This document shows positions 2,031-62,016 of a DNA stretch of 64,000 nt, in pieces; the stretch's first letter is position 1, and the number at the start of each line of letters is the position of its first letter. The stretch comes from Pagrus major (Eukaryota > Chordata > Actinopteri > Spariformes > Sparidae), in the NCBI RefSeq assembly GCF_040436345.1, contig NC_133225.1, forward strand, positions 23,579,040 through 23,643,039. Direction: 5' to 3'. Both the position numbers and the translations under genes were made by a program. The notes below the pieces were generated by a model. The model was not told the DNA's origin and ran no database searches. It saw only the letters and a program-made list of their open reading frames with translations.

Positions 2031-2045
2031 CTGTTGAGTTGTTAC
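2031..2045 (-). other. Gene A coding micro-exon 2 (15 nt)
   Basis: Five codons (phase 1 to phase 1) flanked by perfect AG and GTGAGT signals. It differs from the micro-exon of gene B by one base, which turns N-N-L-T into N-N-S-T; each version still holds one N-glycosylation sequon. Confidence 0.72.
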
Positions 2046-6479: not shown

Positions 6480-6558
<79 letters not shown>

Positions 6559-28834: not shown

Positions 28835-28896
<62 letters not shown>

Positions 28897-29013
28897 TTTA
28901 TTTTGGCAGCGCCAATTCACAACAAAAGTCTCCTCATGACTGATGATGACGGACAACTTTAACTTGTATTACACTCTTGTATCAATTATACTTGTGTACT
29001 TCGTCCACCACTG
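26583..29013. repeat. Possible large or nested hAT-type element pair
   Basis: The left end 'cagtggtggaaagtgacaa' (26581 on) and the right end 'tacttcgtccaccactga' (to about 29013) are the two inverse ends of the common fish hAT-type repeat. Between them are further scraps of that family (about 27625-27665, 28640-28740), a 'gccctagcgccccctattg' segment (about 27600) and the AATC array. This may be one element swollen by insertions or two separate copies. Confidence 0.35.
28836..28896. repeat. (AATC)n array joined to a short dispersed repeat end
   Basis: Fifteen or so AATC/TCAA units, followed by 'tttattttggcagcgccaattcacaaca' to about 28930, the usual end of a fish retroposon written in reverse, with the tetranucleotide array as its tail. 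Confidence 0.7.
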
Positions 29014-36601: not shown

Positions 36602-36665
36602 ATGGCAGGTGTCAGAGATCTGAGGATCCTGCTGCTCTGGGCTGCAGTCATCGGTTTATCCAGCT
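36602..36665 (+). other. Gene B exon 1 (signal peptide)
   Basis: Encodes M-A-G then a hydrophobic core (ILLLWAAVIGL) and S-S, ending in phase 1 before GTAAGT. It aligns residue by residue with the first exons of genes A, C and D, which supports the start choice. Confidence 0.85.
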
Positions 36666-39600
36666 GTAAGTAACCATCTTCAGCATCAATGTAATGGGCT
36701 TTTTACCTCTGCAAAGGAGGTTATGTTATCATCCGTGTGCGTTGTTTTCTTGTATGTTGGTTGGTTTGCAGGATTTCACAAAAACTACCGAACGGAGTTC
36801 CATAAGACTTGAATAAAGGATGGGTCCAGTCCCACGATAGACAATTACGGATTTTTAATGATGTAATATTTAATTAAATAAACATTATATGTTGTAGTGA
36901 AAATGTTTGGTGAGTTAATATAATATTCAACTTTTACTTTTAAGGATCAAAAAAGTACAAAAAATATTTTAGATCAATTTAGTTTTCTGTTCAACATTAC
37001 TTTAACATCCAACAGTCTCAAAACAGTTGAAATTACTTTTATCTAAGCGCACCACTTCTCGTTAGTAAAATCTGTTAAACAATGAGTGAGCTATCATCTT
37101 TCAAATTAAAACGCATCTTTCCTGCAACTTTAAATCGACTAATTTACAGAGTTTAGGTTCCAAAGTGGCCCACTGAACATATTAGATATTTTGTGCATAT
37201 GTGTTTTTTTTAAACAAAGTTGGGAGATTTGTTATGGATTTGAAGGGAACATGAGATGTCTAATTCAATCGCTCCAGTCTGTATGAAAGCAGTTAATTTC
37301 ATCATCGTCATTAATACCTGCCAGTGGCCTACTCTCCTTTATTAAAAACAATGGATTTTAAAGAGTCAAAATAAATAAGACTACAATTAATTTAATTTGA
37401 TTTAACACAGAAAAAAGAATCAGCTTTTGTGGCCAACACTTTATTATAATAATAAAATATAATAAATATCAATGTAAGATATATATACTTCATAAATAAA
37501 TGTTAAATTCACAGTTAATTAAACTTTAGTGACTGTTAAAAAACAGTTAAATGCTTCATAATCCACAGAGATTTATGTTGAGAAGGTAATGCAGAACATT
37601 ATATTTTGGTATTAATGAGAACTGCATAACAAAAAATAATAATAATAATAATATATATGATATTTATTCCTGAACACTGTAAATTTAACATTTTAAGCCC
37701 CATATAATTTATTTAAGACACAAGTGAGTCTTGACCTCACAGTAACCTTTAAGTTTAATTAATTTCATTTTAAAATCAATATATTGTAAAATCTTCCTAT
37801 TTATAATTCTAAAACTAAAAGGACATAGATGTATTCTGACTTTGTAGTAGTAATCCGTCAGTACTTTAAACTATATAAAATCAGATCGCTATCAAGGACG
37901 TGGGTTTGGTTGTCGGAGTTTCCTGTCAAAAACACAATGATGCACTGATGAAAAAGATACATACAAATACGTAGTTAAACTTAGAGTCCCATTTATTTTT
38001 AGTTTTAAGTATTGAGTGAATTTTATTTCATTAAACCATCTAGTTCTGATTTCTTTCAATAAACACATGACCAGATATGTTGACTTTCAAAGGTTATATT
38101 TGCAGAACATCCTAAGACGAACTTTACTGTTGATGCCTCACTGTAATAAATAATAAGTAATAATCTATAATTAAAGTGTTTTTTAAATTTATATCGCTCC
38201 TTTAAAAACTGAGTTTACAAAGTGCTTTGACAGACACAGCAACGAAAGGAAACTCAGGGAGACAATCTAACAGAATAAACACTAAATAGTCGAGTAAAAC
38301 AGAAAGATTCCCAGAGTAAGGACAAAATAAAACAACAAGTCAGAAAAAAATACAATTACAACAATGCGGACCTCTGCAGAAACCCTAATGATACAACAGT
38401 TTCCTCATCAACCCTGCTGTGTTTCGCACGTACAACATAATTTGTTGATGGCGACATTTTCATCTTATCAACCCATTTTATGTTGACTTGTGCTGGCAAC
38501 CTGACTATTATAGAGATGACAAACAGATGCCAGGGTCAGCTGGGTAACGCAAACATAGCTTACATGGTTAACTAACATCAGTTGACTTGGAAATGTTGGT
38601 GACTCTAGGTTTTGACTTTACATCAACATGGTTACTGGCTAGTTACATCACTACCTGTTTTCTATGATCTGGGTGGTAAAAAAGTTCCTGATATTTCTTC
38701 TTCTTTGGTGACATCATGCATGATATCTAAAGAGTACAAAACCTGTTAGGACAAATGATGTTATGTGCTGTGCAGAGCAAGAGAGTAAGTAATGACTACT
38801 TACTGATTACTTACTATATTCCAGGGAAAGTACAAAAGATGTTGTGACTCTCTCTTCATTTGCAACGACTGCAGTTAAAGTACATTTACAGCCAATCAGT
38901 TTTGTTCAGGTTTTGTTCTGCACATTACATACAGTATACTGGAATGTTTCATGACTGTGATGATTTACACCTTTTCTCTTTTTCTAGGTAACAACTTAAC
39001 AGGTGAGTGACATTACACAAGTTACCTAATATATAACACTGAATTGTTATAATGAATCGAATGTGTCATTCTAATTATGCCTGGCTGTGCTATAGCTTCA
39101 CCTCAGCCTCACACTCGCTTTACACTGTCTCATCTCTTCATGGCCACAGCAGCAACAAAGCCAGCAAAATGTCATAAATGAGTGTCCTCTTCAAGTGGAG
39201 ATCATGTGTCCCACGTACAGTGAGTGACAGAAGTACATTTTCTCACTTTTAGTAAGTAGTTTGGTTGATGTGGGCCTCCATTTTAGTGACCTGTCTCACC
39301 CAACCCACAACTCGCGGTTAGCTGATGTTTAAATTTGATCCACATAATGTGTTTGTTTGACTGCAGTCCTTTGGTGGAGGAATGTTCCACAGTAAACTAG
39401 ACACAGTTATTTGTGTTCAAAACTTATCAATTGCTTTCTTATTTGTGCTCCTTTCACAACATTTGCTTGGAACAAATCTGCATTTGTGATTTTCATTCAC
39501 ATTCAACTCATACATAATCATACTCATTCATATCATGAGTGGCAAAGAAAAGTTGAAACTTTACTCGCAGGTATTTTCTCTTTGATTTCTAAATCGGCTT

Positions 39601-42600
39601 CCTTTTAGCTGAGCTCAGGCAAACTAACAATAACTTCTACTGCATCTGCCGCATAACATCTACTGAATACCATGATTTTAGGGTCTGAAATTAGACCCTG
39701 AAATCATAGGAAAGTATTCCATTGAGTGTACGTCATGTTTATTATATTTATTAAGTTCTATACAGTAGCAATTTATTGAAATGTATTCATGCTTCTGAAT
39801 GGTTTCCCATGCAAAGAGAAACCATTCTGTGTCGAGTGCTGTCAGAAATTAGATGAGTCAAACTCTGTGATGGTTCAGTATGCACCTTGTTTCCATCATA
39901 TGAACAAGGAAGTAACTGATAATGTAGCCAGTGAAACCTTTTATTTCCTGATTGTGGTTCCCAAGTAGCTGTTGGTGCAGCATTATGACGACTCTGTACC
40001 ACTGCTGAAATAATTCTGTGAATGTTGGCAACCTCCAGGCGACTTTGATGATGTTTTACTATCAGGAATTTAGCAATAAGTCCAAAACCAGGAAGTATTT
40101 GAACTCAGAGCAGCAGGTAATTCTCAACACGATTCGTTTTCTGCTATTCTAGCTGTGAAGTCCAACTGAACACATGCAGATGAATACTGCATTTCCTCCT
40201 CAGACTATAAATCTGCTCTTGCCCAGTGCTGCTATGTTTTTTATCTCTTGCTTAAACAAATGTGTTGAAGACATAAATGAGACTAAGGACTGACAAGGAG
40301 CAACAAGTGGAAACAGGATCTGTATGGTCACAAACGTTAGAGGGAAAATAAAACATGTAGCACCTTTTATTGATGTAGGATATTGTGATATTGGGTTTGG
40401 CCTGATTTTTGTTTTCTCGGAATGCAGATGTTAAAACCACCTCACCTCCACGCACCATGACAGATTCCACTTTACCTTCAGTAACCAGCCAGTCTGTCAT
40501 CACCTCACCTCCACGCACCATGACAGATTCCACTTTACCTTCAGTAACCAGCAAGTCTGTCATCACCTCACCTACAAGCACCATGACAGCAGCTCCTGTC
40601 ATGTCTTCAACCAGCTCAGCCCTCAAACCTCCACGCACCTCGCCTACCCCCACCTCAAACTCCTCAATTCAAGCATTCAATTCCACTACCGTGTCTGGTA
40701 ACGTATTCAGCCTCAGTTTACAGTAAAATTGGAAACATGAAGTAGTACTTAGGCTTTATATCAGGTAAGACTGTTGGCAGTAAAGGTATTTCCACCTGAA
40801 GGTGACCTCAAGCATGCTCTCCATCCTACAGCCAGTCCTTCTCCTGCAAACACCTCACACTCACTCACCACCACTTCACCCAGCACGTCAAACCGCACTC
40901 AAAACGAGACCTCACCTGCAATCACCACGCCCACCACCACAGAGAATGCCTCCACCACAGGTTGGAATTTTCTCATCTACAAACCAACAACACTTCTTCT
41001 TGTATAGGACTGTGATAAAACTGTGTTACGTGAAACCTGCTTGAAGTTATTTTGACTTGACTTTTGACTATTTCTATGTTTTATGATCATAGAGTATATG
41101 AATATTTTTCCTTTTCTAATCCTCTTTGAATGCATTCTCTACCCACAGCAGGCCCACCAGTCACTCGACCTCCACTGTGTGAGTATCAGTCTTACGTCAT
41201 CTTAACAAACACTTGCACAGATTATAGTGATATTTCTCTCAGTGTTTCTCAGTGATTTCATTCTGTTTCAGCTCAGGAGCATGTTTAACGTCTACATGAA
41301 CCAACTGAGATTTTAAGAAGAAATCTCATCAGGTGGTTTATATTAACTAAGAGATTTCATTGTTCTGTTGATTTTGTTTGCAGGTTCTTACACTGTTACA
41401 CCCATCGACTTTGGCCTACAGATTAACATTACAAGCTCTACTCCTGGTAACTACATCATAAAGATTAATGAAGGGGGGCAACATGAGACTGAAGAGACAT
41501 TCAACATTGAGCACAATCAAACCTCATCACGTGACATCAAACACCTGAAGCCCTGTACTGAATATGAGCATAATGTGACATTTAATGATGGCACTGGACA
41601 AACACCCTGTAGCAGCAGCCCTGGACATAAAACAAGGACATCTAGCATGAGTAAGTAAAAATAATTCATACTGTTGAATTGCAACTTACTTTTACTTTAA
41701 GAAGTGGACCTGTGTGTGAAACTTACCATATGTGCATCACTTGTCTATTGCAGGTCAAAGTGACATTACGGACGTCAGCAACCCTGCATCATGCATCCCT
41801 GGATATGTTTGTTACCAGAGTGAATGGGACATCAGCTCCTCAATGTCAACATCAGATGATATTCCAGCTGAGTCGTGTACAAGTGACAATAAAACATTCT
41901 GCATCAAACCTGGTTTCAAGGATATTTGCTCAGATTTGACTACAACCTTCACTTCAGGAAACTGTTCTTCCTTCAGCCTCACCAAAAGCATCACTGTTGG
42001 TATGTACTGCAGAGTCCTCCTGTATTTTTGCATGTGGTGGAGACATTACTCCATCGTGTTTTAATGTCTGTGCTGTTTTCTTCCACAGGTTTCTTAATTC
42101 AAAGTGAGATACATTCAAGAGTTCAACCTGAACTTCCTGCAGAAATAAACACAACATTACCTTCAAAGTGTCATCTCACCACTGATTACACCTGTCAGGG
42201 TAAGTGGAAAGACAAGAAGTACAGAGACTTTGTCTGTCATCAACACTATGAATGGATTTACATGAAAATCCTTAAAGGCAGTATGCACTGTAAGATCACT
42301 CTGTAAAAAAACATATGATGATAAAAATCTGTTTAATTTAAAAACTTTTGGGGTAAGAGGAAGTCGAGGTATTGTGACTCTGAACAGATGATTTATTTAT
42401 TTGCTGTCCACATCTGAATCTAATCTAACCCCAAAGTGTAACTGCTCACAGGCACTGTGTTGAAGCAGTTGTTGAAGAAATGTTGTAATTCTTGTTTCTC
42501 CTCAGAAAATGGACAAATCAAGGGATTGTCTAAGCTGGAGCCCTTCACAGACTACAGCTGTATCGGTCACGTTAAGGACATCACCAATGTCACCATAATA

Positions 42601-43279
42601 AACACAACTGATATCCCCTTCAGGATTGACTGTGGTATGTTGAGATTCACTTTACCTCAGTGCAATGATAAGAACAATCAGCTTGTATCCTCAGATAACT
42701 CTGGACAGTGTTACAGATTTATAATGTGTCCTAACAGATCTTAAAGTAACCAACACGGAGAAGAAAGCAACCAACACCTCCATCCATTTGAGTTGGACCA
42801 CGACCAGTACCAACTGTCAAGCTGTTCTTCAAAATCTTTCAAATCTTTCTTATGACTGCAGCTGCTCACCTGGTCACAACCAATGTAAGTAAAATTATTT
42901 AGACTAACTTTATAATTCACTGAATTTCATTCACTTCACAGGAATGCATCTTTGAAAGATCATTTTAGTGACCATTTGACCTACATAGTGAAATATAGTG
43001 TGGACATTAGAATCCTCCATTGACCTTCAGTAAAGTGCTCCATGCTTCAGCGTGCTGAGTGACAGCAGGTGTAAAAAACCTGCTGCAGGTCAACAAGTTA
43101 TGACACAACATGAAATATGGCACAGAAATAACACTGAAATGTCAGATTAATATCTTTGTTTCTCTACGAACGAACGAGGTCAGAAAAAATATTTACAGCT
43201 AAAAGTTGCTGCACAGTTAATGATGAGCTGGTTGTTCATCAGAAACAAGTCTGATTCTATATATTTAGCCTGTTTTCAC

Positions 43280-43327
<48 letters not shown>

Positions 43328-46006
43328 GAAACTGTGTTACAGTTGCAGTTAATAAATATCCACAAGGAGGAACATGTGAGATTGATGGACTGAAACCATA
43401 CACCGACTACACCTGTAAAGTCCAACCCAAATATAACAACAACCCTGTGGGTGAATCAGCTGAAGTTAGACAGAAAACTGAGACTGGAAGTAAGTGTCAA
43501 AATAATATATTTTGGAGGAGATTACAGCAACACATGTATAATACAAACAGACTATCCTGACTGTTTATTCATTCATCCTTTGTATTTCACATGTTGTTGA
43601 ATATAAAGTTAGAACTGTGTGGCAGTAAAAGTTAATTTCTTTATGAAACCATTTCTTCAGAACATACAGTGAAACTGACATCATGTGTCATCACGTTATG
43701 GCTCGAGTAGAAGAAATAAATTTACTAAATGAATATTTTAATTTGAAATATCAACACAACATTTACTTTGGGCTAATTAATTATCATTAAATTCTGACAT
43801 CAGACAGTTTATCATTCCCTGATATTAATACCAGTTTAGATTATGTGGGCCGACAGTATAAGAACATCACGCTATGATGATGAGCTTCATGATGTAGCTC
43901 CAATAATTAGTGAAGAAGGGGCCTTGCACACAGTATGTACCGGGAATGTACAGTAATTATTGACTTCACATGTCAATAATGGTGGATATTATTACTTAAA
44001 TATCAACATTAAACATCTTTCAGCTTCGTCAGTTCTGATCTGTTTCTTTATCTCAGGTGCTGCAGTGAACAGAGTCTTGTGTTTCAGAGTATTATCATAT
44101 TTTTCAGTCTGAGATTAATCAGAGTATTGTACTAAAAATTCAAAGTAAACTTTAATTAAATCAGATCAGTAATGACCGTTTCTCTACACTTTAATAAACT
44201 TATAGAACTTTAAAATTGAATTAAAAATATATACTTTCCATTTTTATCTTTAAAAAAAAGGTTTAAAACTTTATTTTTAAATGTACTCATCATCTAAAAA
44301 CAAGACAAGAATATAGAATACCAACTTTAAAGAATATTACATCGTCTGATATTTTTATACCTTTGATTTTAAAAATCAAATCAAAAAATAGTTTTCAGTG
44401 TAAATTAAATTATCTTTGTTTGCTTTACACATTTTGTATTTGTATCATTGTTGACAACCAGCACAACCAACAGAGCAACATACTAAACACTGTTAAAACT
44501 TCTGTTTATAGGAAACTATAATATTAACACACTTTAATTGTGAGTAAGCACACAGCGCTGTATCTGACGCTTAATGTTTTTATTTCTCTCCTACAGTACC
44601 AGATACTGTTTCTTTACCAACACTGATAACTCTAGAGAATAATGAGATTAAAGCAACCTGTGGTCCTCCAAGAAGTTTTAATGGACCCAACGGGAGATAC
44701 ATTGCACGTCTTTATCCTCATGGTGACCCTCAGAAGCTGCTTAAAGAAGAAACAAAACAAAAATGTGATTTTGAATTCAAAGATCTGAGTTATTCTACCA
44801 CCTACACAGTGAAGGTTTGTATGATCCAAATTTTTGGAGACACAAAATGATCCCATCTTTATTCCTCATCTGTCTTCAAATGCTTGAATCCCTGATAAAC
44901 AGATTTTTATCTCTTTCCAGGTGACTGCTTCCAATGGAAAACATGAGAGCTTCCCCGCCATAGAGCATATTGACACGAAGTGTACGTGCAGTTTAAATTA
45001 ATGCCACAAAATGTCGCACATCGTTCTGTTAAATCATTTCACACATTTGGTTCTGACCTGTAGTACACACTAACTTTTCTTTACATTGTATCTTAAACAT
45101 GTATGCCACCACTTTAATATTATTTTCTCATCACTTTACAGACAATGACAAAGCACTGATTGGGTTTCTGGTCTTCCTCATCATCGTCATCATCATCATC
45201 ACACTGGCTGTGGTGGCCTACAAGATCTACGTTCAGAAGCGCAGAAAGTCCAGAAAGTAAAAATAATTTTACTAAATCTCTTCTCCTGCTCCAGTTTGAC
45301 TGTCATATTGTTTTCGGGATTATTTAACAGAAATTTGTTTTAATTTACTGTTTATCATCATCACTTTGCATTACTAACAGATGTAGTGTCACCACTGTAA
45401 TTATCTGCAGGATAATGACATGGGAACTAGTTTTTTCGCTCTATGGGACAATTTTCAAGGACATTATATATAAAGTATACATACATACAGGCAATCAGAG
45501 AGAACAGTGCAATTTAATCATGAAGCAATATGTTTGGACACAGACACAGTTTACGACGTGTATCCCATCATAAAACATTACATATTATTTAAAATACAGG
45601 CTGACTTTAATATTTTTCATCCAATCTTCACTATTTTCTCCACAGTGATGTGAATGAGGATGTGATGCTTGAATCAACAGCAAGTGAGTAAACTTTAGTT
45701 TTCTTTATTTTCATGTTTGATTTTTGTTTTTGTTTTTGTTTTCTACGATTGTCTTAACAGTCACATTCAGCGGCTACAAAATACAGATGATGTTTTAGCT
45801 GTTAGGTTGTTAGATTACATGCTGTAGATAAGGAATACAGTATTACAGTATTTTTTGAACTATTATAACTTGCAGTACTAAAACGTATTAATGGGATTTT
45901 ACATAAGACCTGTTGTATGAGTAACACATATTATGTTCCCTTTTTGTTGGTTGTAGTTTATGTTAATGCACCACCTCCTGGATGGCGTCGTAAAGAAGCT
46001 CGCTAA
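36602..46006 (+). CDS. ptprc-like: Gene B: CD45 (PTPRC)-like receptor lacking phosphatase domains, 16 coding exons, 677 aa
   Basis: Coding exons: 36602-36665, 38988-39002, 40428-40697, 40832-40960, 41152-41178, 41384-41650, 41754-41999, 42089-42199, 42506-42634, 42738-42884, 43343-43489, 44597-44814, 44921-44981, 45142-45256, 45646-45683, 45957-46006. All have GT/AG borders, phases agree, and the sum (2034 nt) gives 677 residues and TAA. Layout: signal peptide 1-21, mucin-like region about 27-160, Cys-rich and fibronectin-III-like ectodomain about 169-610, transmembrane helix about 616-637, basic juxtamembrane (KRRKSR), then an acidic tail with Y663-V-N. The start of the helix (NDKALIGFLVFLIIV) closely resembles CD45, which normally continues into two tyrosine phosphatase domains; here the frame stops after about 40 cytoplasmic residues. 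CD45 dephosphorylates Src-family kinases in leukocytes; this protein cannot. A ligand-binding, decoy or adaptor role is inferred. Confidence 0.88.
36666..38987 (+). other. Gene B intron 1 (2.3 kb)
   Basis: AT-rich, without recognisable exons. An AATAAT/AT run lies at 37625-37660. Confidence 0.6.
38988..39002 (+). other. Gene B micro-exon 2 (15 nt)
   Basis: Encodes C-N-N-L-T with one N-glycosylation sequon. The pyrimidine tract and CTAG acceptor, and the GTGAGT donor, are conserved with gene A. No counterpart was found in gene C. Confidence 0.7.
39003..40427 (+). other. Gene B intron 2 (1.4 kb), conserved with gene A
   Basis: Aligns in inverted sense with 1-2030. Holds a hairpin at about 39672-39706 (arms around GGGTCT/AGACCC) and a block at 39980-40200 shared by genes A, B and C. 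Confidence 0.6.
40428..41178 (+). other. Gene B exons 3-5: mucin-like Ser/Thr/Pro region
   Basis: Exons 40428-40697, 40832-40960 and 41152-41178, all phase 1 to phase 1, so any can be skipped in frame, as the variable exons A/B/C of CD45 are. Dense in Thr, Ser and Pro (for example TTTSPSTSN, ITTPTTTEN) for O-glycosylation, with some N-x-T sites. The donor after 40960 is weak (GTTGGA), and the acceptor before 41152 is a CAGCAG tandem. Exon 3 contains a 63-bp repeat. Confidence 0.82.
40439..40564 (+). repeat. 63-bp coding tandem repeat in the mucin exon
   Basis: Two nearly identical units (40439-40501 and 40502-40564, one or two base differences) encode a 21-residue unit beginning TSPPRTMTDSTLPSV. 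A third, degenerate copy starts at 40565. The length is a multiple of three, so copy-number change keeps the frame. Confidence 0.9.
41384..42199 (+). other. Gene B exons 6-8: Cys-rich membrane-distal ectodomain
   Basis: Exons 41384-41650 (89 codons), 41754-41999 (82) and 42089-42199 (37), phase 1. The first has a beta-strand-rich pattern with the CTEYEHNVTF signature of a fibronectin-III-like fold. The second has paired cysteines (SCIPGYVCYQ, ESCTSD, FCIKPG, DICSD), and the third ends KCHLTTDYTCQ. Several N-glycosylation sequons are present. This matches the Cys-rich linker and first modules of CD45. Confidence 0.8.
43277..43326. repeat. (GATT)n microsatellite in a gene B intron
   Basis: About 12 ATTG/GATT units just upstream of the exon at 43343. 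The paralogous array in gene C is at about 56668-56713. Confidence 0.95.
43490..44596 (+). other. Gene B intron between exons 11 and 12
   Basis: AT-rich, no repeat family recognised. It lacks the foldback element found in the matching intron of gene C (57261-57373). Confidence 0.6.
45142..46006 (+). other. Gene B exons 14-16: transmembrane helix and short tail
   Basis: Exons 45142-45256 (transmembrane plus KRRKSR), 45646-45683 (N-DVNEDVMLESTA) and 45957-46006 (IYVNAPPPGWRRKEAR, then TAA). The exon 14 donor GTAAAA is weak; if it is not used, the next codon is TAA and the protein would end at KRRKSRK. Tyr-Val-Asn-Ala fits the pYxN Grb2-SH2 consensus, and the following PPP could suit an SH3 or WW partner. 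Confidence 0.78.
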
Positions 46007-46173
46007 TGAAGAAAGTCCTGGTGGATCTGCTCAACTAACCATCATTAACTGTTGGTGCTTTTAAGTTGTTCAGTATGTAGTAGGTGTTTTAGTCATTTTA
46101 GAAACTTTACTCCAAAACTTTTAATTACCTTGTTTGTTTTGTAGCTAAGACCTCCAGTATTAGTATTATTATT

Positions 46174-46193
46174 ATTAAAGTTGGATAATTAAA
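46174..46193 (+). terminator. Candidate poly(A) signals of gene B
   Basis: ATTAAA at 46174-46179 and again at 46188-46193, about 170-190 bases after the stop codon. A variant signal in AT-rich DNA, so weak evidence alone. Confidence 0.3.
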
Positions 46194-46363
46194 CTTAATG
46201 GCCTGCTTCCATATGTGTAAAATGTCCTTGGGTACCTTGAAAGAGGCTATGAAAAAATTAAAGTTATTATTATTGTTTTCCCAACTTTTAGAGTTCTTTA
46301 ATTATTTTGGTGCTAAAAAAAGTAGTGACATCAGATAACAATAGAAACAGGGATAAAATGTAA

Positions 46364-46510
46364 AAGGACAGGAGAAACAATGACACGGACAGACAGACAG
46401 GTTTGAGCGCTGTGTATACCACAGTTGACGTACATGTTCATGGAAGTGGAGGCTCTGAGGTCACCAGCTATGTGGGGGTTGTTACCTGGCTGGTGTGCCA
46501 TAGATTTTAA
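46364..46510 (+). other. Short open frame with a Tyr motif downstream of gene B, conserved after gene C
   Basis: Reads ...NNDTDRQTG-LSAVYTTVDVHVHGSGGSEVTS... to TAA at 46508. The copy at 59123-59311 encodes the same stretch and the same stop; the two copies differ by indels of 6 and 3 bases, both multiples of three. It could be a relic or alternative cytoplasmic exon of an immune receptor, or chance conservation inside the duplicated block. No linking splice is proven. Confidence 0.25.
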
Positions 46511-46584
46511 TAGAACCTAGATAGGTTTTGCCTAGTGGCCACTCCTGGTATTGCAGCCAAAAAAAAGCTTTTTGTGCCCGGCGG

Positions 46585-46945
46585 GCAGTGTCAGGGAAAC
46601 ATTACATTTAAAAGTGACTCATTACGTTATGATCAAAGCACAAAATCAAAAGTGCCCTGGCTGTTTTTTTCTTACAAAACACATTCCTACACACAAACGA
46701 TTAAAGTGCATAAAGGCCTTTTAAAACAACAAAAAAGTTTTAGGGCCATATTAAAGAATACAAATTTTGAGATTTCGACACGATGAAATAGTAATGTTGT
46801 GAGCATAAAGGAAAGGAAAAGGAAAGACAGCAATTTTTTACAGTAACAGATTACTTTTATTAAAAAACTAAATAAAAAACAGATTACTTGAATTGAAGAA
46901 CTAACACGTTACATTACTCGTTACAAAAACAGCCATCGACTACTA
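46585..46945. repeat. Fish MITE ('gtaacgttacatttaaaagtaact' type)
   Basis: Begins near 'ggcagtgtcagggaaac', with 'attacatttaaaagtgactc', and ends 'aacacgttacattactcg', the inverse end. The paralogous copy at 59378-59735 shows the insertion predates the segmental duplication. Confidence 0.55.
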
Positions 46946-49059
46946 ATCCCTGAGCATCGTAACCTTAGCTTAGCTTCCTTGGCTAGTTGGCCACCATTGT
47001 TTTATGCATGCGAGGCTGAACAAAGTTAAGTTACGGACATGTGGTGCGGAGACGAGGATGCTTTTGAACCTGGCACAGGGATGTATGTCGGTTTCCTCTG
47101 CAGGGTGAGACATTTGGAGATTCATGTAAGTGCAACAGTAGGAAACAGCGACAGCTACAGTGTGAGCTAATACGCAACTGCTGCCTTACGACAAAACACT
47201 GAGGGGACACAATGCCTTAAATTTGGAAACAACGATGTCATCGTCCATCATGATGGTTCATTGTAGACATCGTCATATGCCAATTTGGCAGACAAGTTAC
47301 TCCTAACTGCTGGCGAGCATTTCCCATTGGACGCACATTGGATAGTGTGTTCACTACCTAGATCTATTAAAATCTATGGGATGTGTCCGTGTGTGTATGT
47401 ATATTTTTTGGTGTTAGGTATGAAAGTGTTATGAATGAATGTGGTCCAACATTTGTAAAAAAAAAAATCGATGTGGATGTTATTTTTTTGAAATGCTATT
47501 TGTATTTCATATAAATGTATTCAGTTAACAGAAGGCACCATTGGGATGTTGACAGGTTATTTCTGTCTTTTCAGCTTAGTAAGATTGTTTTTTTAGTGAC
47601 TGTTAAGATGAGCAGTATGGGTTGTTCATATTTCAGAGGTGGTTCAGCTGAGAAAAGTTGAAAAGCATTTAAGCGTGTCTGTAGATTTGATGTATCATAT
47701 TGTAACATGTAGTGCAATTTTTTTATTGATGTTTTTAATCCCCAAAAGAGCCTGAAATAAATAAATTTTAAAAATCAACCAGACTACAGGTGTTGTTGAT
47801 CATATGACTGGCATCTTTTAGCTGCAATCAATCCCTTCAACTACCCACAAATTCAAAATATATCTTTGGCTGACAAACAATGGGCTATACAAATAATTGT
47901 CTAGATTTGAATCAACTTCTGGGACTGGCTTGGGAATTGCAGCAATGGCAATGAATGTTAATGGAGCTCACATTACAGTTAATAATTTGCATTTTGTGTG
48001 ATTTGCGCCCCTCTCCCTGCCACAATTTCTGAGTGCATCACAGCTGTCATAAATACAAATTCCAGGTTTCTGTAATGACTTCTCAGAAGTAATGGCACAT
48101 TACGTGCTAAATACAAAAAAAAAAAAACTATGTCTTATGTCCTGTACTAATGTCTTAAAAAACATCATTCTTGAGGTAAACATGTATGCTCAGGCATTTT
48201 TGCTATGCGGCACTCAAAGTTTGCACGAACGCTGCACAAAACAAAACTTGACAGTAATACCAACTAAAGATACCTGAACCAGGGACAATAACACATAGCT
48301 ATAACATGCTATTGGCTGAACTTGCTGACTTGCCTTATGATCAAAATCTGGCAAGTCAATAACTTTGCTTACACAGCCAAACATTAAGCAAGTGCAACAA
48401 CACAAGACATAGCAACAGCAGTTTGGTGTCCGTTGTGCAGCTGTTTATTTTGTGAAGCTTATATATGTGCGCTGGCGTGTCTGTGTTGCTGGTGGCAGTA
48501 AGCAGATTGCCAGCTGTACTTTCCCCTTAACAAACAGACTCCTTCAGCTCATAGCTGGGTCTCTGAGCTAGAGAGAGCGGACAGGCAATGTCTGCAGGGA
48601 GGGCAGCCTCTCCACACAAACCCAGCTTAAACGACTTGGTTTCAGCAAGCCAGCGTTTGCCAATGGGCTGCTCGTTGACGGGCAGCCTGCCATTTGGACA
48701 TTCAGCCGGTCTGCTCTCTCTTGCCCAGAGACACTCCTGCAGTGGAAAGTGGCTCCAAACGAGGAGTATAAGAAGAGCAGCTAGCCAGTCAGGAGGGACT
48801 GCAACAGCCAAAGAGAGCAGTGTGTTTACTGGGGATACCACAGGTTACAATCTGCGCAATCTGCACCGCCGCTACACACCGGAAGAGAAACTAAAAAATG
48901 TTGATGCATCCAAGCAGACCAATAACAGTTGTTGTGGTTCCACGTCCTGCAACAAAATTCAGCAAATGTATTCCTTCTTGCCTCCAGTATCCCATAATCT
49001 GCAAGCCCAGCAAACAAACAACTTAAGGAGATGGGGACTTGTTTTAAAGCGTAAAAAAA

Positions 49060-49512
49060 CAACCAAAAAAATACTAGTTGGCTCCATACAGCTCTTCAAT
49101 CGTCATCCAAGTCTCAAGAAGCACAGTTCCCAAACTGATTTGAATTTTTTTTATTTAAACACTCCTCACTATAGCTGCTAAGCTAAAAGCATCAACGAGC
49201 ACCCTGTCTGGATGGGGGAAAGCTCAGCCAAAGGTGTAAATATCAAAAAATCAATTTAGGATCTCAGGGCTTCTGGAGAATTGGATTATACCGATGAGCT
49301 TTATGGGGCCATTTATTTATTTATTTATTTATTGTTGTTGTTGTTGTTTTACATTTTAAAACAAGTCCCTATCTACTTCAGTTGTTTAGGAGAATGCTGC
49401 AGCGCTTTTTTGCTGTGAAGCTCCAGAAATGTTTGGTGGACTATGAAACTTCCATCGGCATGGGGGTGAGCAGGTCATGACTAAATTTCATTATTGTGTG
49501 ATGAATCGAAAG
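49060..49512. repeat. Dispersed element, same family as 9443-9942
   Basis: Shares 'gctgctaagctaaaagcatc', 'tctacttcagttg', 'gctgtgaagctccagaaatg' and 'tggactatgaaacttc' with 9443-9942, but its ends are decayed. Contains a TTTA/TTG run at 49310-49348. Confidence 0.65.
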
Positions 49513-49834
49513 ATTAAAAAAAATAAAAAACTATGAAGAAAATAGATTCTAGGTGTAGATAAAACACTATATCATGCCCCCAGAAATGGGGCTTCCTGTC
49601 ATAATATATAGTGGAGGCGAAGCCAGACTGTGGGTGCAACATTACGCCCAATCAGATGACTTGAAACCACGGGTAAGGTATAGTTCATGCAAAAAGCTCC
49701 GTCAAAAGGTGAAATAAGTCATTTCTTTCTAAGCCTTAAATAGAGAGGAAATACAACTTCCCTTTGGGTCATTGAATGTCTCCCTATTGGACTGTCTTGC
49801 ATTTTTGTAGCTGTGCACACCCCAACTCCTGGAA

Positions 49835-49895
49835 ATGGCAGGTCTCTGTTGTGTCAAGATCCTGCTGCTCTGGGCTGGAGTCACTTTGGCCAACT
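49835..49895 (+). other. Gene C exon 1 (signal peptide)
   Basis: M-A-G-L-C-C-V-K then a hydrophobic core ILLLWAGVTLAN, phase 1, donor GTAAGT. Almost identical to gene D exon 1. Confidence 0.85.
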
Positions 49896-52800
49896 GTAAG
49901 TAGCCATCTTCAACATCATCATAATCATTTTTTGTTTTTGTTTTTTAATAATGGGACAGTGTGGGGATAAAAGATGTTTTGTGAAATTTGCTAATTTTTC
50001 TTTTTGAATATTGAAAGTGTTAAAACACTATTTTAGATCAGTATAGTTTCCAGTTCAACGTTGCTTTATTAACAGCCAATAGTCTCAAAACAGTTTCAAA
50101 AACAAAATCTTTTAGTGCAACATTTTTAGGCAAGGAAGACAAAAATGCAACTGCACCCTTGAGTATCTTTGTTAAGACTCATGAGGTTATCATTTAATAA
50201 TATTAATAATGTGGGCATCAGCCTTACTGTTTGTCTGCACATTCAAAGAAACATTTCCACAATCTACCAACCAGAAGATAAGTCAACCCAAAAGAAGCAT
50301 GTCCGTGAAAACATCACGACCTAAACTATAACAGAATAATAGACACATATAATATGTAGTTCAGATACACAATGTGTCAGACTCGGCATAATCATATAAC
50401 AGTCAATACTTCCTGCACATATCAGATAATCTGAGGTTCAGCATCGCGGAAGTTAAACAGAAAACCACGTAGGCAGCAGAGAGTGAGGACTGTAATTTTC
50501 CACTTGATGACTGAACCAAACATTAAGAGGTGGCAAAAGTACACACACTCATTACTCAAGTACAGATGGCAGTGTAAAAAAGATTCTGGTAAAAGTAGAA
50601 GTACTCAACTTCTCTACTCAAGTAAAAGTGATAAAGTACAAGCTCTGTGTACTCAAGTGTAAAAGTAAAAAAGTATCCCTCTGAAGGAGATTTCTACCAG
50701 CCATTTCTGTGCAAAGCTAACTGAACAGCACGTCATGTTAATATAAATCAAAGACTATTAAACTTCAAGGTAGAATCAGTAGGATTTGTTAGAGCTGTTC
50801 CTAAACTCACCACAAAGATATTTGATTGTTGATTCTCATTCACAGGATGTCAAATATCGACATTTTTGTTTGGTAAAGCACCTCGAGCAGCAACAAAGTG
50901 AGAAAATAATAAAAATACAGGCAGAGGGCTGCAGGGTTTCTGCAGATACATGTTAGTGTCAAACATGCCTTTCTCCCCATTTGAGTCTCCCTCTGTCTGT
51001 TTCTGTCTTATTACGTCTTTTGTGTTGTTTCGTCACACTGACAGCTTGGAATCAGTCTTGTGATGTTGCGAAGGCGGCATCCAAATTACACCAAATAAAA
51101 ATAATTGATAATTCCACTCAAATGCATTCAAACTAAAGTAATGAGCCTGTTTTGAAAATGTAAGAAGTAGAAAGTATAGGTATTTGTCTTAAAATGTTGG
51201 CAGTAAAAGTAAAAAATGATCAGAAAAATAAATATTCAAGTAAAGTACAGATACCTTAAAAAAGACTCAAGTACAGAAATAAAGTATTTGTACTTTGTTA
51301 CTTCCAACCCCAACAAAATGTTAGAGAGTTAATCTAATCTGTATGAAGAGGATCTGTAGAATATGTGAGATTCATCTTCCACTTTTACTCGACTTAACTG
51401 TGTGAAACGTTTTCTTAACCTTCACTGAGAGCTTCTGTGACATACAAGTGTCCACACCACAAAAGCAACACACTGGCCACAGCCTCCGTCACTGCTATGC
51501 ACCACTTGAAGTACTTCGGCAGCATTCACAGCCCAGTATAAAACCAGTGAAGTGAATTAGCTGTGTGTGAGAGCTGTATTGATATTTCAGCGTACTTGTT
51601 GCTCTATACTTTCTATAAGCATAGTGTAGAGAAGACAGAGAAACGCAAAATAAACTAGAATGGAAATGAACGACTTAAAGGTGGTTGTCTTACAGTGAGA
51701 AAGCTATAAAAATGTGTCAACAAGTTTTTCAAGTCAGAGTCTTTATTAACTTTTGTTTAAAAATCAAATTAACTCTATGAAGAAGCTAAGCTAGGTAGCT
51801 GTTGGTGCAGCATTATGACGACTCTGTACCACTGTACTGTACACTGAAACAATCCTGTGAACGTTGACAACCTTCAGGCGACTTTGATGATGTTTTACTA
51901 TCAGAAATTTAGCAATAAGTCCAAAACCAGGAAGTATTTGAACTCAGAGCAGCAGGTAATTCTCAACACGACTCCTTTTCTGCTATTCTGGCTGTGAAGT
52001 CCAACTGAACACGTGCAGATGAATACTGCATTTCCTCATCAGCCTATAATATGCTCTTGCCCAGTGCTGCTGTGTTTTTTATCTCTTGCTTAAACAAATG
52101 TGTTGAAGACATAAATGAGACTAAGGACTGACAAGGAGCTTTGCAACAGGAGGAAACAGAATGTATGTGGTCACCAACATTAGCAGGAAAATGCAGCATG
52201 TTTGAAGTTATTTTGGAAGGCTATTTCAAAGTGTTAAAATCAAATACAAATATTTTTCCTTTTCTAATCCTATTTGATTCTCTAGCCACAGCAGGCCCAC
52301 CAGTCACTCTACCTCCACTGTGTGAGTATCAGTCTTACGTCATCTTAACAAACACTTGCACAGATTATAGTGACATTTCTCAGTGTTTCTCAGTGATTTC
52401 ATTCTGTTTCAGCTCAGGAGCATGTTTAACATCTACATGAACAAGCTGAGATTTTAAGAAGAAATCTCATTGATTTCATTGTTCTGTTGATTTTGTTTGC
52501 AGGTTCTTACACTGTTACACCCATCGACTTTGGCCTCCAGATTACCATTACAAGCTCTCCCCCTGGTAACTACATCATAAAGATTAATGAAGGGGGGAAA
52601 CATGAGACTGGAAAGACATTCAACGTTGAGCTCTTCAATCAAATCTCATCACGTGACATCAAACACCTGAAGCCCTGTACTGAATATGAGCATAATGTGA
52701 CATTTAATAATGGCACTGGACAAACACCCTGTAGCAGCATCACTGAACAAAAAACAAGGACATCTAGGATGAGTAAGTAAAAATAATTCATACTGTTGAA

Positions 52801-55800
52801 CTGCAACTTACTTTTACTTTAAGAAGTGGACCTGTGTGTGAAACTTACCATATGTGCATCACTTGTCTATTGCAGGTCAAAGTGACATTACAGACGTCAG
52901 CAACCCTGCATCATGCATCCCTGGATATGTTTGTTACCAGAGTGAATGGGACATCAGCTCCTCAATGTCAACATCAGATGATATTCCAGCTGAGTCGTGT
53001 ACAAGTGACAGTAAAACATTCTGCATCAAACCTGGTTTCAATGATATTTGCTCAGATTTGACTACAACCTTCACTTCAGGACTGTTCTGTTCTTCCTTCA
53101 GCCTCACCAAAAGCATCACTGTTGGTATGTACCGCAGAGTCCTCCTGTATTTTTGCATGTGGTGGATACATTACTTCATCATGTTTTAATGTATGTGCTG
53201 TTTTAAATCTTCCACAGATTTCTTAAATCAAAGTGAGATACATTCAAGAGTTCAGCCTGAACTTCCTGCAAAAATAGAAATAACATTACCTTCAAAGTGT
53301 CATCTCACCACTGATTACACCTGTAAGGGTAAGTGGAAAGACAAGACGTACAGAGACTTTGTCTGTCACCAACACTATGCATTGATTTACATGAAAATCC
53401 TTAAAGGCAGTATGCAGCGTAAGATCACTCTGTAAAAAAAGACAAGAACAACAGATATGACGCTGACTCTGCTCTAACCTGGTTCACATCATACCTGACA
53501 AATCGCACCTTTCAGGTCATGTGGAATAGCTCCTTGTCCAAACCCTGCTTTCTGGAAACTGGTGTCCCTCAAGGCTCAGTACTAGGACCACTTCTGTTCT
53601 CACAATACACTAGATCACTAGGCTCTGCAATCACATTACATGGATTCTCTTACCACTGCTAAACAGATGACACTCAACTGTTCCTCTCTTTTCCCCTATC
53701 CTCCGACACCCATGTTGCAACACGCATCTCAGAATGTCTGGCAGACATCTCCGCTTGGACAGCTGCGCACCACCTCAAGCTCAACCTTCATAAAGCTGAA
53801 CTCCTCTTCATCCCGGGGAAAGACTGCCCTCACATGGACCTGTCAGTCACTGTCAAGGACGTCACAGTATCGCCTTCATCGACTGCGAGGAACCTGGGCA
53901 TAATCTTCGACAACAGACTATCCTGCACCCCCAACATCACTGCTGTGGCCCGATCCTGCAGATTTGCCCTCTACAACATCCGCAGGATCCGGTCTTTCCT
54001 CCCACTTGGACTAGGCTTGTACGGTATACCGGTACTAAATTGGTACCGCGGTACCGACGCATTTAAAAAGGTACTATACTGCGCTTGGATGAGACCGGTA
54101 CTTTTTTCATTTCATTTTATATAGCGCCGCGCTGCCGCGTAACGGCGCAGCGTGACGTCACCGCATTGTAATTTGAGCCGAGGCGAGGAAGTCAGAGCAA
54201 GCGAGGGAGCGAGCGAGTTACTGGAGCAACAGACGGAGCAGGAGGAAAGCTTGGACACAGGGAGAGATAACGGAGAGAAAGAGAGAGAGAGAGGAGCAGG
54301 GAGAGAATGGCAGCTGCTGCAACCGTCACCACTCCGCAACTTACGGACAAATCAGGTGCGCGAAGTGCATGGCGAAGTCATAAACACCGAAGCACCACGG
54401 TGTTATAAAACATGTCTGGCAAAGGGTGGAAACACATCCAACCTGGCCAAACATTTGAAGGACAAGCACCCAGACCTGCACAAGGAGTTCAAAGAACGAC
54501 AGGTAATACCCATGAAAAAAAAAGCCACATTCAGTGTTAAAAGCAACGCCAGCCCCCTTCACTCTCCACAAAAGTAGCTCTGGAAAAGAATTAAAGCTAG
54601 TTTTCAATTACCACTTTCTCTGGTTTAAATAGCCTATTTATATTATTATATATTATATCATTATATTTAGTAGTAATAAAAAGTAAAGTAATAAACTTTT
54701 ACATACACATTTAGCCATTTAATATGTTATAAAGAGTACAGCATAGTAATGTAACGTATCATTTAAAGACATTGGTCCTACATAAGACAGGCTATATTTA
54801 ATGAAAATATTTTTTAGGTTATGTATCTTAACGTAATTAAGGCCTCAGCTTGTATGACATATGCATCACCTTCATTTTATCTTTTCACTACAGAGTCTTT
54901 ATGGTATTTCATTTTATTTACTGATGTATAGTTCTAAGATTTTAAAGATTTTCTATGAAAATAAAGCCATTAATGACATTTTTTGTGTTCTCTTTTTATT
55001 TGGAAAAGTATCGAAAAGTATCGAAATACATGTTGGTACCGGTATCGATACCAAAATGTTGGTATCGTGACAACACTAACTTGGACTAGTGCAACTCGCT
55101 CTTGGCTGGACTCCCAGCCTCTGCGACTAAACCGTTGCAGTATATCCAGAATGCTGCAGCGCGCCTCGTTTTCAATCTACCCAAATTCTCCCATGTGACC
55201 CCCCTCCTCCGTGACCTCCACTGGCTTCCTGTTGCAGTCCAGATCCAATTCAAGACCATGGTGCTGGCCATCAAGGCCGTCAACGGAACTGCACCCATCT
55301 ACCTCCAAACACTGGTCAGACCACACGCCCCAGCACAAGCACTTCACTCCACTACATCAGCTGGCCGGCTGGTACCACCGTTGCTGAGGGCAAACAAAGG
55401 TCGCTCAGCGAAGTAATGACTCTTCTCTGTTCCAGCGCATCAGTGGTGGAACGAAATCCCGACCAATGTCAGGACAGCAGAGTCACTCGCCATCTTCCGC
55501 TAAAGACTCAAGACTCACTTCAGACTTCACCTTGACCCAGCATAGCATGACTCCCTCCCACTTGTGTGTTCTTACCCTTAGCACTTAAATCATAGCACTT
55601 ATGTACTTAATGTATCCTTGATATATAGCATCTACTATGCTCAGACGAGGGCTTGAAAATTGTTTCTATTTTTTCATTCTTTATCGACAGTGTTATGTTG
55701 TGGTTTCTTTCTTGTGATAAATGTACTTATTGTAGAATCTAATGAATCTAATCTAATCTAATCTGAATCTAATCTAACCCCAAAGTGTAACTGCTCACAG

Positions 55801-56676
55801 GCACTGTGTTGAAGCAGTTGTTGAAGAAATGTTGTAATTCTTGTTTCTCCTCAGAAAATGGACAAATCAAGGGATTGTCTAAGCTGGAGCCCTTCACAGA
55901 CTACAGCTGTATCGGTCACGTTAAGGGCATCAACAATGACATCATAATAAACACAACTGATATCCCTGTCAGGATTGACTGTGGTATGTTGAGATTCACT
56001 TTACCTAAGTGCAATGATAAGAACAATCAGCTTGTATCCTAAGATAACTCTGGACAAAACACCAGATACTCAGTGTTACAGATTCATAATGTGTCCGAAC
56101 AGATCTTAAAGTAATCTACACAGAGGAGAGAGCAACCGACACCTCCATCCATTTGAGTTGGAACACGACCAGTACCAACTGTCAAGCTGTTCTTCAGAAT
56201 CTTTCAAATCTTTATTATGACTGCAGCTGCTCACGTGCTGACAACAAACAGAAACGGGTGACTGGATGTAAGTAAAATTATTTAGACTAACTTTATAATT
56301 ATTTCATTCACTTCACAGGAATGCATCTTTGAAAGTCCTTGGAGGTCATTTTAGTGACCATTTGACCTACATAGTGAAATATACTGTGGACATCAGAATC
56401 CTCCATTGACCTTCAGTAAAGTGCTCCATGCTTCAGCGTGCTGAGTGACAGCAGGTGTAAAAAACCTGCTGCAGGTCAACAAGTTATGACACAACATGAA
56501 ATATGGCACAGAAATAACACTGAAATGTCAGATTAATATCTTTGTTTCTATACGAACGAACGAGGTCAGAAAAAATATTTACAGCTAAAAGTTGCTGCAC
56601 AGTTAAAGATGAGCTGGTTGTTCATCAGAAACAAGTCTGATTCTATATATTTAGCCTGTTTTCACTGATTGATTGG

Positions 56677-56713
<37 letters not shown>

Positions 56714-58752
56714 GGATTGAATTAATGAAACTGTGTTACAGTTGTAGTTAACAAAGATCCACAAGGAGGAACATGTGAGATTGATGGACTGGAACCATAC
56801 ACCGTCTACACCTGTAAAGTCCAACCCAAATACAACGACAACCCCGTGGGTAAATCACCTGAAGTTACACAGGAAACTGAGATTGGAGGTAAGTGTCAAA
56901 ATAAAACATTTTGGAAGAGATTACAGCAACACATGTATAATACAAACAGTCTATCCTGACTGTTTATTCATTCATCCTTTGTATTTCACATGTTGTTGAA
57001 GTTTTTATTTTTGTTACTGTTTGTTTATCCAAGGTGCTGCAGTGCAGAGAGTCTGGTGTCTTGAGAGTGTCGTTTAGAGGATTACATTATTGTTCAGGGT
57101 TAAATTGTAATCAGTTACTACAATGAACATTGTATGTGGAAAATAATGACTTTTTCTCTTAGTGATCCACTTTAGAATATTAACTTTGAAAGGGAATTCG
57201 AAAATATTCTTTCAGTTCATTTTTTAATATTAAACATTTGTTTTTATTCACTCATCATTTAAAGTTGCTATTTGTAAGAAAAGTTGATTTTTGAGTCTCA
57301 TTCCCAAAGCATCAGTTTTTGACGAGTTGGGAGTGCGAGTCAAAAATCCACTTTTCTTACAAATAGCATCTTTGAAGATTTAAGAATACAGAATGACAAC
57401 TTTAAGGAATAATACTAATTTTCTGATATTTTTATACCTGTTTTGCATTTGAGTTTACGTGCAAAATGAATTATTTTGTTTGCTTTGCACATTTTGTATT
57501 TGTATCATTACTGACAACCAGCACAACCAACAGAGCAACACACTAAAGAGTGATTAAGCTTCTGTTTAAATGAAACTATAATATCACTGTGAGTAAGCAC
57601 ACAGCGTTGTATCTAAAGGTAAATGAGATTGTTTTTCTCTCTAACAGTACCAGATGGTGTTACTTCACTGTTGCTGTCTAATCCAGAGAATAATGAGATT
57701 AAAGTAATCTGTGCTCATGGAGGACGTTTTAATGGACCTAACAGGAAATACCGTGCACGTCTTTATCTTGGTGGTGACTCTGAGAAGCTGCTTGAAAAAG
57801 ACAAATGTAATTTTGAATTCAAAGATCTGAGTTATTCTACTACCTACAGAGTGGAGGTTTGTATGATCCAAATTTTTGGAGACACAAAATGATCCCATCT
57901 TTATTCCTCATCTGTCTTCAAATGCTTTAATCCCTGATAAACAGATTTTCTCTCTTTCCAGGTGACTGCTTTCAATGGAAAATATGAGAGCTTCCCCGCC
58001 ATAGAGCATGATGACACAAAGTGTACGTGCAGTTTTAATTAATGCCACACACTGTCGCACATCGTTCTGTTAAATCATTTCACACATTTTGTTCTGACTT
58101 ACAGTGCACACATCCATTTATGTAAATTGTATTTTAAACATAAATGCTACCACTTTTATATTCTTCTCTTATAACCATCATTTTACAGACAACAGAAACA
58201 GACTTGTCTTTGCTGTTCGGCTCTGCTTCATCACCATTGGCATCATCATCATCATCATCACAGTTGTGGTCATCTACCAGATCTCTGCTCTGAAGCGCAG
58301 AAAGTCCAGAAAGTAAAGATCATTTGCATCTGATCTCCTGCTCCAGTTTGACTGTCAGATTGTTTTGAGTTTAATTCACAGAAATTAGTTTTAATTTCCT
58401 GTACATCAACATAATTTTGTGTTGCCTAACTGTAATCACTTCACTTTTTTCTCCACAGTGATGTGAATGAAGATGTGAAGCTTGAATCAACAGCAAGTGA
58501 GTAAACTTTAGATTTACTGTTTTTTTCCACAACTGTCACATTCAGCAGCTTCAAACTATGTATGATATTTAGCTGTTAGGTTATTAGATTATGTTATCAA
58601 TTAAGAATACAATTGCAGTATTTCCCACTCTAGAATAACTGCAGTACTAAAACTTTTGAATAGTATTACAAAAGTATTTTTATTGTAACAGTATTTCCGT
58701 TTTGTTTGTTGTAGTTTATGTTAATGAACGGCCTCCTGGATTGAGATCATAA
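49835..58752 (+). CDS. ptprc-like: Gene C: CD45-like receptor without mucin or phosphatase regions, 13 coding exons, 542 aa
   Basis: Coding exons: 49835-49895, 52295-52321, 52503-52772, 52876-53124, 53218-53328, 55855-55983, 56103-56267, 56742-56888, 57648-57856, 57962-58022, 58189-58312, 58459-58496, 58715-58752. Phases agree; total 1629 nt, stop TAA at 58750. Layout: signal peptide 1-20, short Pro-rich link, Cys-rich/fibronectin-III-like ectodomain about 30-476, transmembrane about 485-506, tail of about 36 residues with KRRKSR, DVNEDVKLESTA and Y532-V-N-E. Each exon is a close paralogue of one in gene B, but the micro-exon and both mucin exons are missing. The helix is more diverged from CD45 than that of B (RLVFAVRLCF start, then an Ile run). 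All exons are open despite a 2.3-kb transposon insertion in the intron after 53328, so the gene is probably functional. No phosphatase domain is encoded. Confidence 0.85.
49896..52294 (+). other. Gene C intron 1 (2.4 kb)
   Basis: Contains a hAT-type element (50527-51310) and, at 51720-52200, a block paralogous to intron 2 of gene B and to 1-400 of gene A. At about 52200 the match to B jumps from about 40360 to about 41042: the two mucin exons have been deleted. Confidence 0.7.
50527..51310. repeat. hAT-type non-autonomous element, about 780 bp
   Basis: Starts 'gaggtggcaaaagtaca' and ends with the inverse 'gtactttgttacttccaac'. The interior shares 'ctgtgcaaagctaactgaac' with 3200-3435. No transposase frame. 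Confidence 0.65.
52295..53328 (+). other. Gene C exons 2-5: Cys-rich membrane-distal ectodomain
   Basis: Paralogous to gene B exons 5-8, with single-codon insertions (E-L-F-N-Q in place of E-H-N-Q; one extra residue before C-S-S-F-S-L-T-K). The splice sites are the same, including the CAGCAG tandem acceptor before 52295. Confidence 0.8.
53437..54003 (+). pseudogene. L2-type LINE reverse transcriptase fragment, 5' piece
   Basis: Encodes the conserved GVPQGSVLGPLLF motif, then a decayed catalytic box (the Y-A-D-D position reads stop-T-D-D near 53660), followed by DTQLFLSF-like and HHLKLNLHKAELL blocks typical of L2/CR1-clade elements. Interrupted at 54012 by the hAT element. In-frame stops and frameshifts show it is dead. 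Confidence 0.8.
54012..55078 (+). mobile_element. Nested hAT-type DNA transposon with BED finger remnant
   Basis: Flanked by an 8-bp target duplication ACTTGGAC (54004-54011 and 55079-55086). The ends are imperfect inverse repeats (left 'taggcttgtacggtata', right inverse 'tagtgttgtcacgata'). The open frame 54152-54577 ends in a BED zinc-finger pattern (C-x3-C, GGNTSNLAKHL, H-P-D-L). No RNase-H-like transposase core remains, so it is non-autonomous and 1067 bp long. Confidence 0.82.
55087..55764 (+). pseudogene. L2-type LINE, 3' piece with (AATCT)n tail
   Basis: Resumes the LINE right after the target duplication: LAGLPASATKPLQYIQNAAA, then LHWLPVAVQIQFKTMVLAIKA, the conserved end region of L2-type proteins. 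It ends in an AATCT-type tail that merges with the host 'gaatctaatctaacccc'. Confidence 0.8.
56668..56713. repeat. (GATT)n microsatellite in a gene C intron
   Basis: Paralogous to 43277-43326, so it predates the B/C duplication. Confidence 0.9.
57261..57373. repeat. Foldback element, about 113 bp, in a gene C intron
   Basis: Left arm 'gttgctatttgtaagaaaag' and right arm 'cttttcttacaaatagcatc' pair over roughly 37 bases, including the inner 'tttttgagtc'/'gagtcaaaaa', around a loop of about 40. Gene B has no counterpart at this spot (near 44290), so it is an insertion in C. Confidence 0.75.
58189..58752 (+). other. Gene C exons 11-13: transmembrane helix and short tail
   Basis: Exons 58189-58312, 58459-58496 and 58715-58752. 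Tail: KRRKSR, then NDVNEDVKLESTA, then IYVNERPPGLRS and TAA. Compared with B, one extra base after the Pro-Pro-Gly codons shifts the frame and shortens the end by four residues; the Tyr-Val-Asn motif lies upstream and is intact. Confidence 0.78.
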
Positions 58753-61955: not shown

Positions 61956-62016
61956 ATGGCAGGTCTCTGTTGTGTCAAGATCCTGCTGCTCTGGGCTGGA
62001 GTCACTTTGGCCAACT
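61956..62016 (+). CDS. ptprc-like: Gene D: first coding exon of another CD45-like gene, runs off the right edge
   Basis: Encodes the same 20 residues as gene C exon 1 (M-A-G-L-C-C-V-K, then ILLLWAGVTLAN), phase 1, followed by GTAAGT. The upstream 250 bases and the downstream intron start also match gene C. The rest of the gene is outside the window: intron 1 of its paralogues is 2.3-5.3 kb and only 2 kb is available here. It may be a full gene or a partial duplicate; nothing seen here breaks it. Confidence 0.72.

Follow-up and report, generated by a model that had tools for sequence, protein, structure and literature searches.

Three adjacent genes in the Pagrus major genome, here called B, C and D, are most likely working and diversifying paralogues of CD45 that lack its phosphatase, as judged from their sequences. 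We analysed a window of 64,000 nucleotides (C11:23579040-23643039) together with its flanks; the genome searched comprises 786 Mb in 25 contigs. Gene A, the true ptprc, lies on the minus strand, head to head with gene B, and genes B, C and D all lie on the plus strand (Table 1). The original prediction described B and C, and both gene A and the third copy D were absent from it; the family is larger than was envisaged there, with three truncated copies.

Organization of the ptprc cluster

Left of the window gene A continues with membrane-proximal, transmembrane and juxtamembrane exons and then phosphatase exons, where VHC closes one exon and SAGVGRTG stands in the following one. In a search of solved structures the best match of the gene A catalytic piece was human CD45 (1ygr, E=2.3e-62), and we therefore take gene A to be the true ptprc. 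A run of exactly 5000 N (C11:23574040-23579039) abuts window position 1 and hides the middle ectodomain exons of this gene. The cluster is flanked on its left by an alpha/beta-hydrolase exon (L009:5424-6305, plus strand) and on its right by a nek7-like kinase exon (L014:7582-7947, minus strand); nek7 is a neighbour of human PTPRC as well. Gene D is intact: its 13 exons, encoding 546 aa, start at 61956 and extend past the window to coordinate 72649. When the genome was searched with protein C, all of the 27 matches listed (best candidates scored) fell within the cluster (C11:23573709-23651249), and no further copy outside it was among them. The spacer at window 29800-31300 is strongly purine-rich and strand-asymmetric, with an AT skew of 0.247 over 28001-32000.

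Table 1. Features of the ptprc cluster in window coordinates
Feature	Position	Strand	Basis and remarks
Gene A (true ptprc), exons 1 and 2	2031..7436 (exon 1, 7436-7373; exon 2, 2045-2031)	-	Later exons left of window, partly hidden by 5000 N
Gene B, CD45 paralogue lacking the phosphatase, N-terminal part mucin-like	36602..46006	+	ATG 36602, stop at 46006; 16 exons, 678 aa; fn3; no phosphatase exon
Mucin-like part of gene B, rich in S/T/P (exons 3-4)	40428..40960	+	Exon model; absent from C and D models
Gene B exon 14, transmembrane segment and tail start (KRRKS)	45142..45256	+	Exon model, transmembrane call
Short tail of gene B with IYVN, in exon 15 (45646-45683) and exon 16 (45957-46006)	45646..46006	+	Exon 16 resembles frame-shifted remnant of gene A juxtamembrane exon
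Gene C, CD45 paralogue lacking the phosphatase and the mucin-like part	49835..58752	+	13 exons, 543 aa; fn3, CD45 structure match
Transmembrane segment and tail of gene C (31 residues, with IYVN), exons 11-13	58189..58752	+	Exon model, transmembrane call
Gene D exon 1, start of third truncated copy	61956..62016	+	12 more exons right of window, ending at window coordinate 72649

Joining by splice signals on the plus strand brought all 29 exons of B and C together in phase (29/29) and with no internal stop, just as had been predicted, and the introns have GT donors and AG acceptors; the recomputed joins give 678 and 543 aa where the original lengths, 677 and 542, were one fewer each. Indeed, no stop or frameshift occurs in any exon modelled for B, C or D, and their splice sites are GT-AG, so that the disabled frame or splice sites of truncated fish CD45 pseudogenes were found in none of the three. 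Their ectodomains are of the CD45 type, with fibronectin III domains and one C-terminal transmembrane segment in each of B, C and D. The best solved-structure match was CD45 both for gene C alone (5fn8, E=8e-11) and for a profile of B, C and D (8vse, E=9.9e-14), in each case over the membrane-proximal fibronectin part, and Pfam fn3 scored above its cut-off in B and C. C and D have a clear hydrophobic stretch at the N terminus; that of B, at 1.55, falls slightly short of the Kyte-Doolittle cut of 1.6 over 19 residues. In the mucin-like part of B, S/T/P make up 61% of residues 24-165. A structure predicted for a single ectodomain exon from two sequences (C exon 3 and B exon 6) had a mean pLDDT of 43.6 and was set aside. 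The window gave 0 Rfam matches at gathering scores.

B, C and D lack the two tandem phosphatase domains of the cytoplasmic part, with their HCSAGxGRT signature. When six pieces of the juxtamembrane and phosphatase exons of gene A were compared by tblastn with 144 kb of sequence surrounding the window, 5 kb of which is N, the matches were gene A itself and the best elsewhere had E=0.34. Similarly, a scan for SAGxGR[TS] in six frames of the 144 kb found only that of gene A, outside the window, and none in B, C, D or the spacers. A genome search with the gene A catalytic exon listed 35 places, gene A at 96% identity and the rest at 61% or less; a PF00102 search scored 150 of 280 candidates, with part of the matches listed. 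Splicing of B-D into phosphatase exons elsewhere was considered and rejected: neither the window nor the 50 kb to its right yielded such exons, and the sole ptprc-type catalytic exon listed is that of gene A, on the minus strand. The view of B and C as CD45-like receptors without phosphatase domains is thus borne out by the structural matches, the fn3 domains and the agreement of six-frame scan and tblastn, and the phosphatase-bearing PTPRC for which a chromosome search had been proposed adjoins them as gene A. The original wording was that the genes have lost both phosphatase domains. Since an intact, phosphatase-bearing ptprc lies next door, B, C and D are better described, on sequence grounds, as 3′-truncated duplicates of this neighbour, in which the juxtamembrane exon was apparently kept as a frame-shifted remnant.

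Evidence for this remnant comes from the last exon. In gene A, exon 15 continues into an exon encoding ...EAYKRKLADEGRLFLAEFQ. Aligned to this juxtamembrane exon, the last exon of B scored 37, whereas the best of 2000 shuffles reached 36; gaps in the alignment change the reading frame, so that the stop lies within former coding sequence. The match is weak for the other copies, with 1.3% of shuffles scoring as high for C and 5% for D; the argument therefore depends on B and on how alike the last exons of the three copies are. The last exon of B-D thus looks like a frame-shifted remnant of the gene A exon.

The introns of the copies also carry inserted sequence. A stretch in an intron of C (window 53440-55760), which by eye is retroelement-like, is present in D too, and a nested insertion of about 1.06 kb within it (54014-55079) is found in C only; Pfam searches of two ORFs of this repeat returned 0 families. 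Intron 1 of D holds a segment of about 660 bp with inverted ends (window 62103-62762) that is absent from the matching place in C. The same intron (L012:400-1760) contains what by eye are older, damaged exon remnants resembling B exons 5 and 6, and D looks composite.

Indels, substitution rates and mosaic likeness

We compared the copies with one another, excluding the last exon, where B and C show a further 12-base difference, from all coding counts of indels and rates. The coding sequences of B and C differ by six indels, all multiples of three (6/6), versus 8/36 in introns, where 28 are not (p=6e-4); some of these introns align poorly, and with the well-aligned ones alone the test weakens to p=.028 (indels that are not multiples of three, 6 of 9 in introns versus 0 of 6 in coding sequence). 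Random placement of 167 substitutions in B left no stop with a probability of.004, and placement of 74 substitutions in C, for the C-D comparison, with a probability of.064.

Between C and D we counted changes at 66.5/1172 replacement sites, 5.5/331 silent sites and 24/1559 intron sites. Replacement change exceeds that in introns (p=3.5e-9) and at silent sites (p=.003), and silent sites and introns do not differ (p=.64). These intron counts drop poorly aligned stretches, use the ends only of intron 4 and exclude intron 7; the unfiltered C-D figures agree, replacement remaining higher than the 60/2475 of the introns (p=2e-6). A bootstrap over exon blocks gave C-D ranges of 1.95-6.26 for pN/pS and 1.64-9.16 for pN/pIntron. 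Replacement likewise exceeds introns in B-C (p=3.5e-7) and B-D (p=8e-6), and was not above silent change in B-C (p=.4) or B-D (p=.16). B-C silent sites are also above the filtered introns (p=.014), and the intron yardstick is therefore low for that comparison. Whole-gene dN/dS was 3.0 for C-D (p=.002), 1.47 for B-D (p=.06) and 1.30 for B-C (p=.2), so that the ratio between B and C, which the original prediction had singled out, lies above 1 in value and falls short of significance. The membrane-proximal fibronectin part (C residues 340-439) holds 36 of the 63 amino-acid differences between C and D.

Likeness among the genes jumps between adjoining segments. For example, B intron 12 differs from that of C by 1.9%, and for the next intron, 13, the difference is 3.8% to A and 14.4% to C; by eye, D exon 9 mixes B-like and C-like stretches. 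The natural reading of such jumps would be gene conversion among the copies, in which case their differences are non-independent, a problem that the bootstrap only partly addresses. In C and D the sequence ahead of the ATG resembles that of gene A, scoring 64 and 59 where the best of 300 shuffles reached 30 and 31, and no likeness to gene A was seen in the upstream region of B (score 23, highest of 300 shuffles 31). C and D may therefore have kept the ptprc promoter, and the promoter of B may differ.

Short cytoplasmic tail and its Y-V-N motif

In place of a large cytoplasmic part the three copies have short tails, 35 residues in B (KRRKSRNDVNEDVMLESTAIYVNAPPPGWRRKEAR) and, in C and D, KRRKSRNDVNEDVKLESTAIYVNERPPGLRS (31 residues in C). 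From KRRK to IYVN, a boundary chosen after viewing the alignment, only 2/69 bases differ between B and C, versus 97/523 in introns 13-15 (p=4e-4). Over the whole tail the count is 8/95 (p=.017), and over exon 15 alone 2/38 (p=.045). Y-V-N is present in all three tails and missing from the homologous stretch of gene A. Y-x-N is the SH2 consensus for Grb2-type adaptors, and the tails carry the pY-x-N of Grb2-docking receptors as a sequence motif only, with a 6-7% chance of finding Y-x-N in such a tail. The conservation hints at a possible role for the tail beyond that of an anchor.

Proposed function and known systems

As the best explanation of the whole, to which we give an even chance, B-D are functional truncated duplicates of ptprc that act as competitors or decoys of the real CD45. 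Their anatomy, truncation, adjacency, kept frames and faster-than-intron replacement are as observed above. Duplication of ptprc without its 3′ part would have given B, C and D, each a type I surface glycoprotein with a CD45 ectodomain, a transmembrane segment and no phosphatase, and the frame-shifted remnant of the juxtamembrane exon would have supplied the short new C-terminal tail. The ectodomain would have diversified, aided by gene conversion among the copies, with the tail held. We infer expression, location on leukocytes, ligands shared with CD45 and a decoy effect: there B-D would bind what binds CD45, either endogenous lectins or CD45-targeting pathogen proteins, and such binding without phosphatase output would make them competitors or decoys. 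The mammalian CD45 ectodomain is under positive selection, with common exons changing faster than an intron, and is bound by CMV UL11 and adenovirus E3/49K (PMC4379584). A similar signature on copies without the enzyme would fit proteins that meet CD45 ligands without phosphatase.

Neutral decay is a poor account of the indels and rates, and a diversifying ectodomain on a constrained tail would explain indels, stops, rates and tail alike. The original argument against simple pseudogenes drew on open frames; frame-keeping indels, replacement faster than introns and the conserved tail support it by stronger tests. It thus seems unlikely to us that B-D are young, still intact pseudogenes, functionless partial duplicates of ptprc in which lesions have not yet gathered. 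Such duplicates would share the truncated 3′ end, the last exon that reads a frame-shifted remnant, the dN/dS near 1 of B-C and B-D and the precedent said to exist in catfish and pufferfish, but every coding indel keeps the frame, 167 substitutions would rarely have spared B a stop, replacement between C and D runs above introns and silent sites, and the tail is conserved between B and C.

The tail could also fit self-signalling paired receptors, in which ligand binding would lead to phosphorylation of Y-V-N and docking of a Grb2-type SH2 adaptor, turning an enzyme receptor into a docking receptor. Between B and C, no part of the 3′ half has changed less than the tail, and its motif, shared by the three copies, is missing from gene A there; however, chance alone would supply Y-x-N at the frequency given above, and B versus C/D is a single independent comparison, so that we regard this reading as doubtful. 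The 5000 N that abut the window and hide middle exons of gene A, together with the near identity of C and D in parts, could also suggest an assembly artefact or haplotype duplication of the gene A ectodomain beside the 5-kb gap. We consider this very improbable and rejected it, given that B-D share a tail unlike that of A and differ from one another exon by exon, by up to 19% in exon 12.

Extending the decoy reading, a receptor phosphatase may have become a small tandem family with a varied ectodomain, no phosphatases and a reframed juxtamembrane remnant as a conserved tail with an SH2-docking tyrosine, giving paired or decoy CD45s in an arms race with CD45-targeting pathogens; this joint version we put forward tentatively, as a possibility with the odds against it. 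CD45 sets the threshold of lymphocyte activation, and viral proteins bind its ectodomain (PMC4379584). If our reading is true, natural enzyme-less CD45 ectodomains would offer a ready-made test of how the ectodomain works alone, whether by binding ligands, by being excluded from contacts or by acting as a decoy, and fish CD45 'pseudogenes' would merit a second look. It also affects the locus to which a CD45 antibody signal or a read should be assigned in such fish. One ptprc is tabulated for zebrafish (PMC2933243), and a sea bass transcript is named 'phosphatase c-like (PTPRC)', a label that does not single out one gene (PMC5684396). Judged by titles and abstract openings, the papers listed in literature searches include no report of functional phosphatase-less CD45 paralogues in fish.

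Compared with PTPRC/CD45, including gene A, B-D are alike in their signal-peptide-like start, Cys-rich and fibronectin III ectodomain, transmembrane segment, exon phases and locus, and B also in its mucin-like exons; unlike it, they have neither D1 nor D2 phosphatase, and 31-35 residues replace the large cytoplasmic part. Kountikov et al. in 2005 reportedly described, beside the catfish CD45 gene, 3′-truncated copies in channel catfish and one in pufferfish, and called them pseudogenes. These too are 3′-truncated duplicates of a fish CD45 gene, and the kind is therefore already known; in contrast, the three copies here keep open reading frames and show signs of selection. What is new is thus the evidence, from sequence comparison, that truncated CD45 copies appear to be kept and diversified. 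KIR and LILR are clusters of paired or decoy immune receptors, and B-D resemble them in having tandem ectodomains that change fast and are prone to conversion, next to a relative whose cytoplasmic part differs, although the domains are of the immunoglobulin type there and of the CD45 type here.
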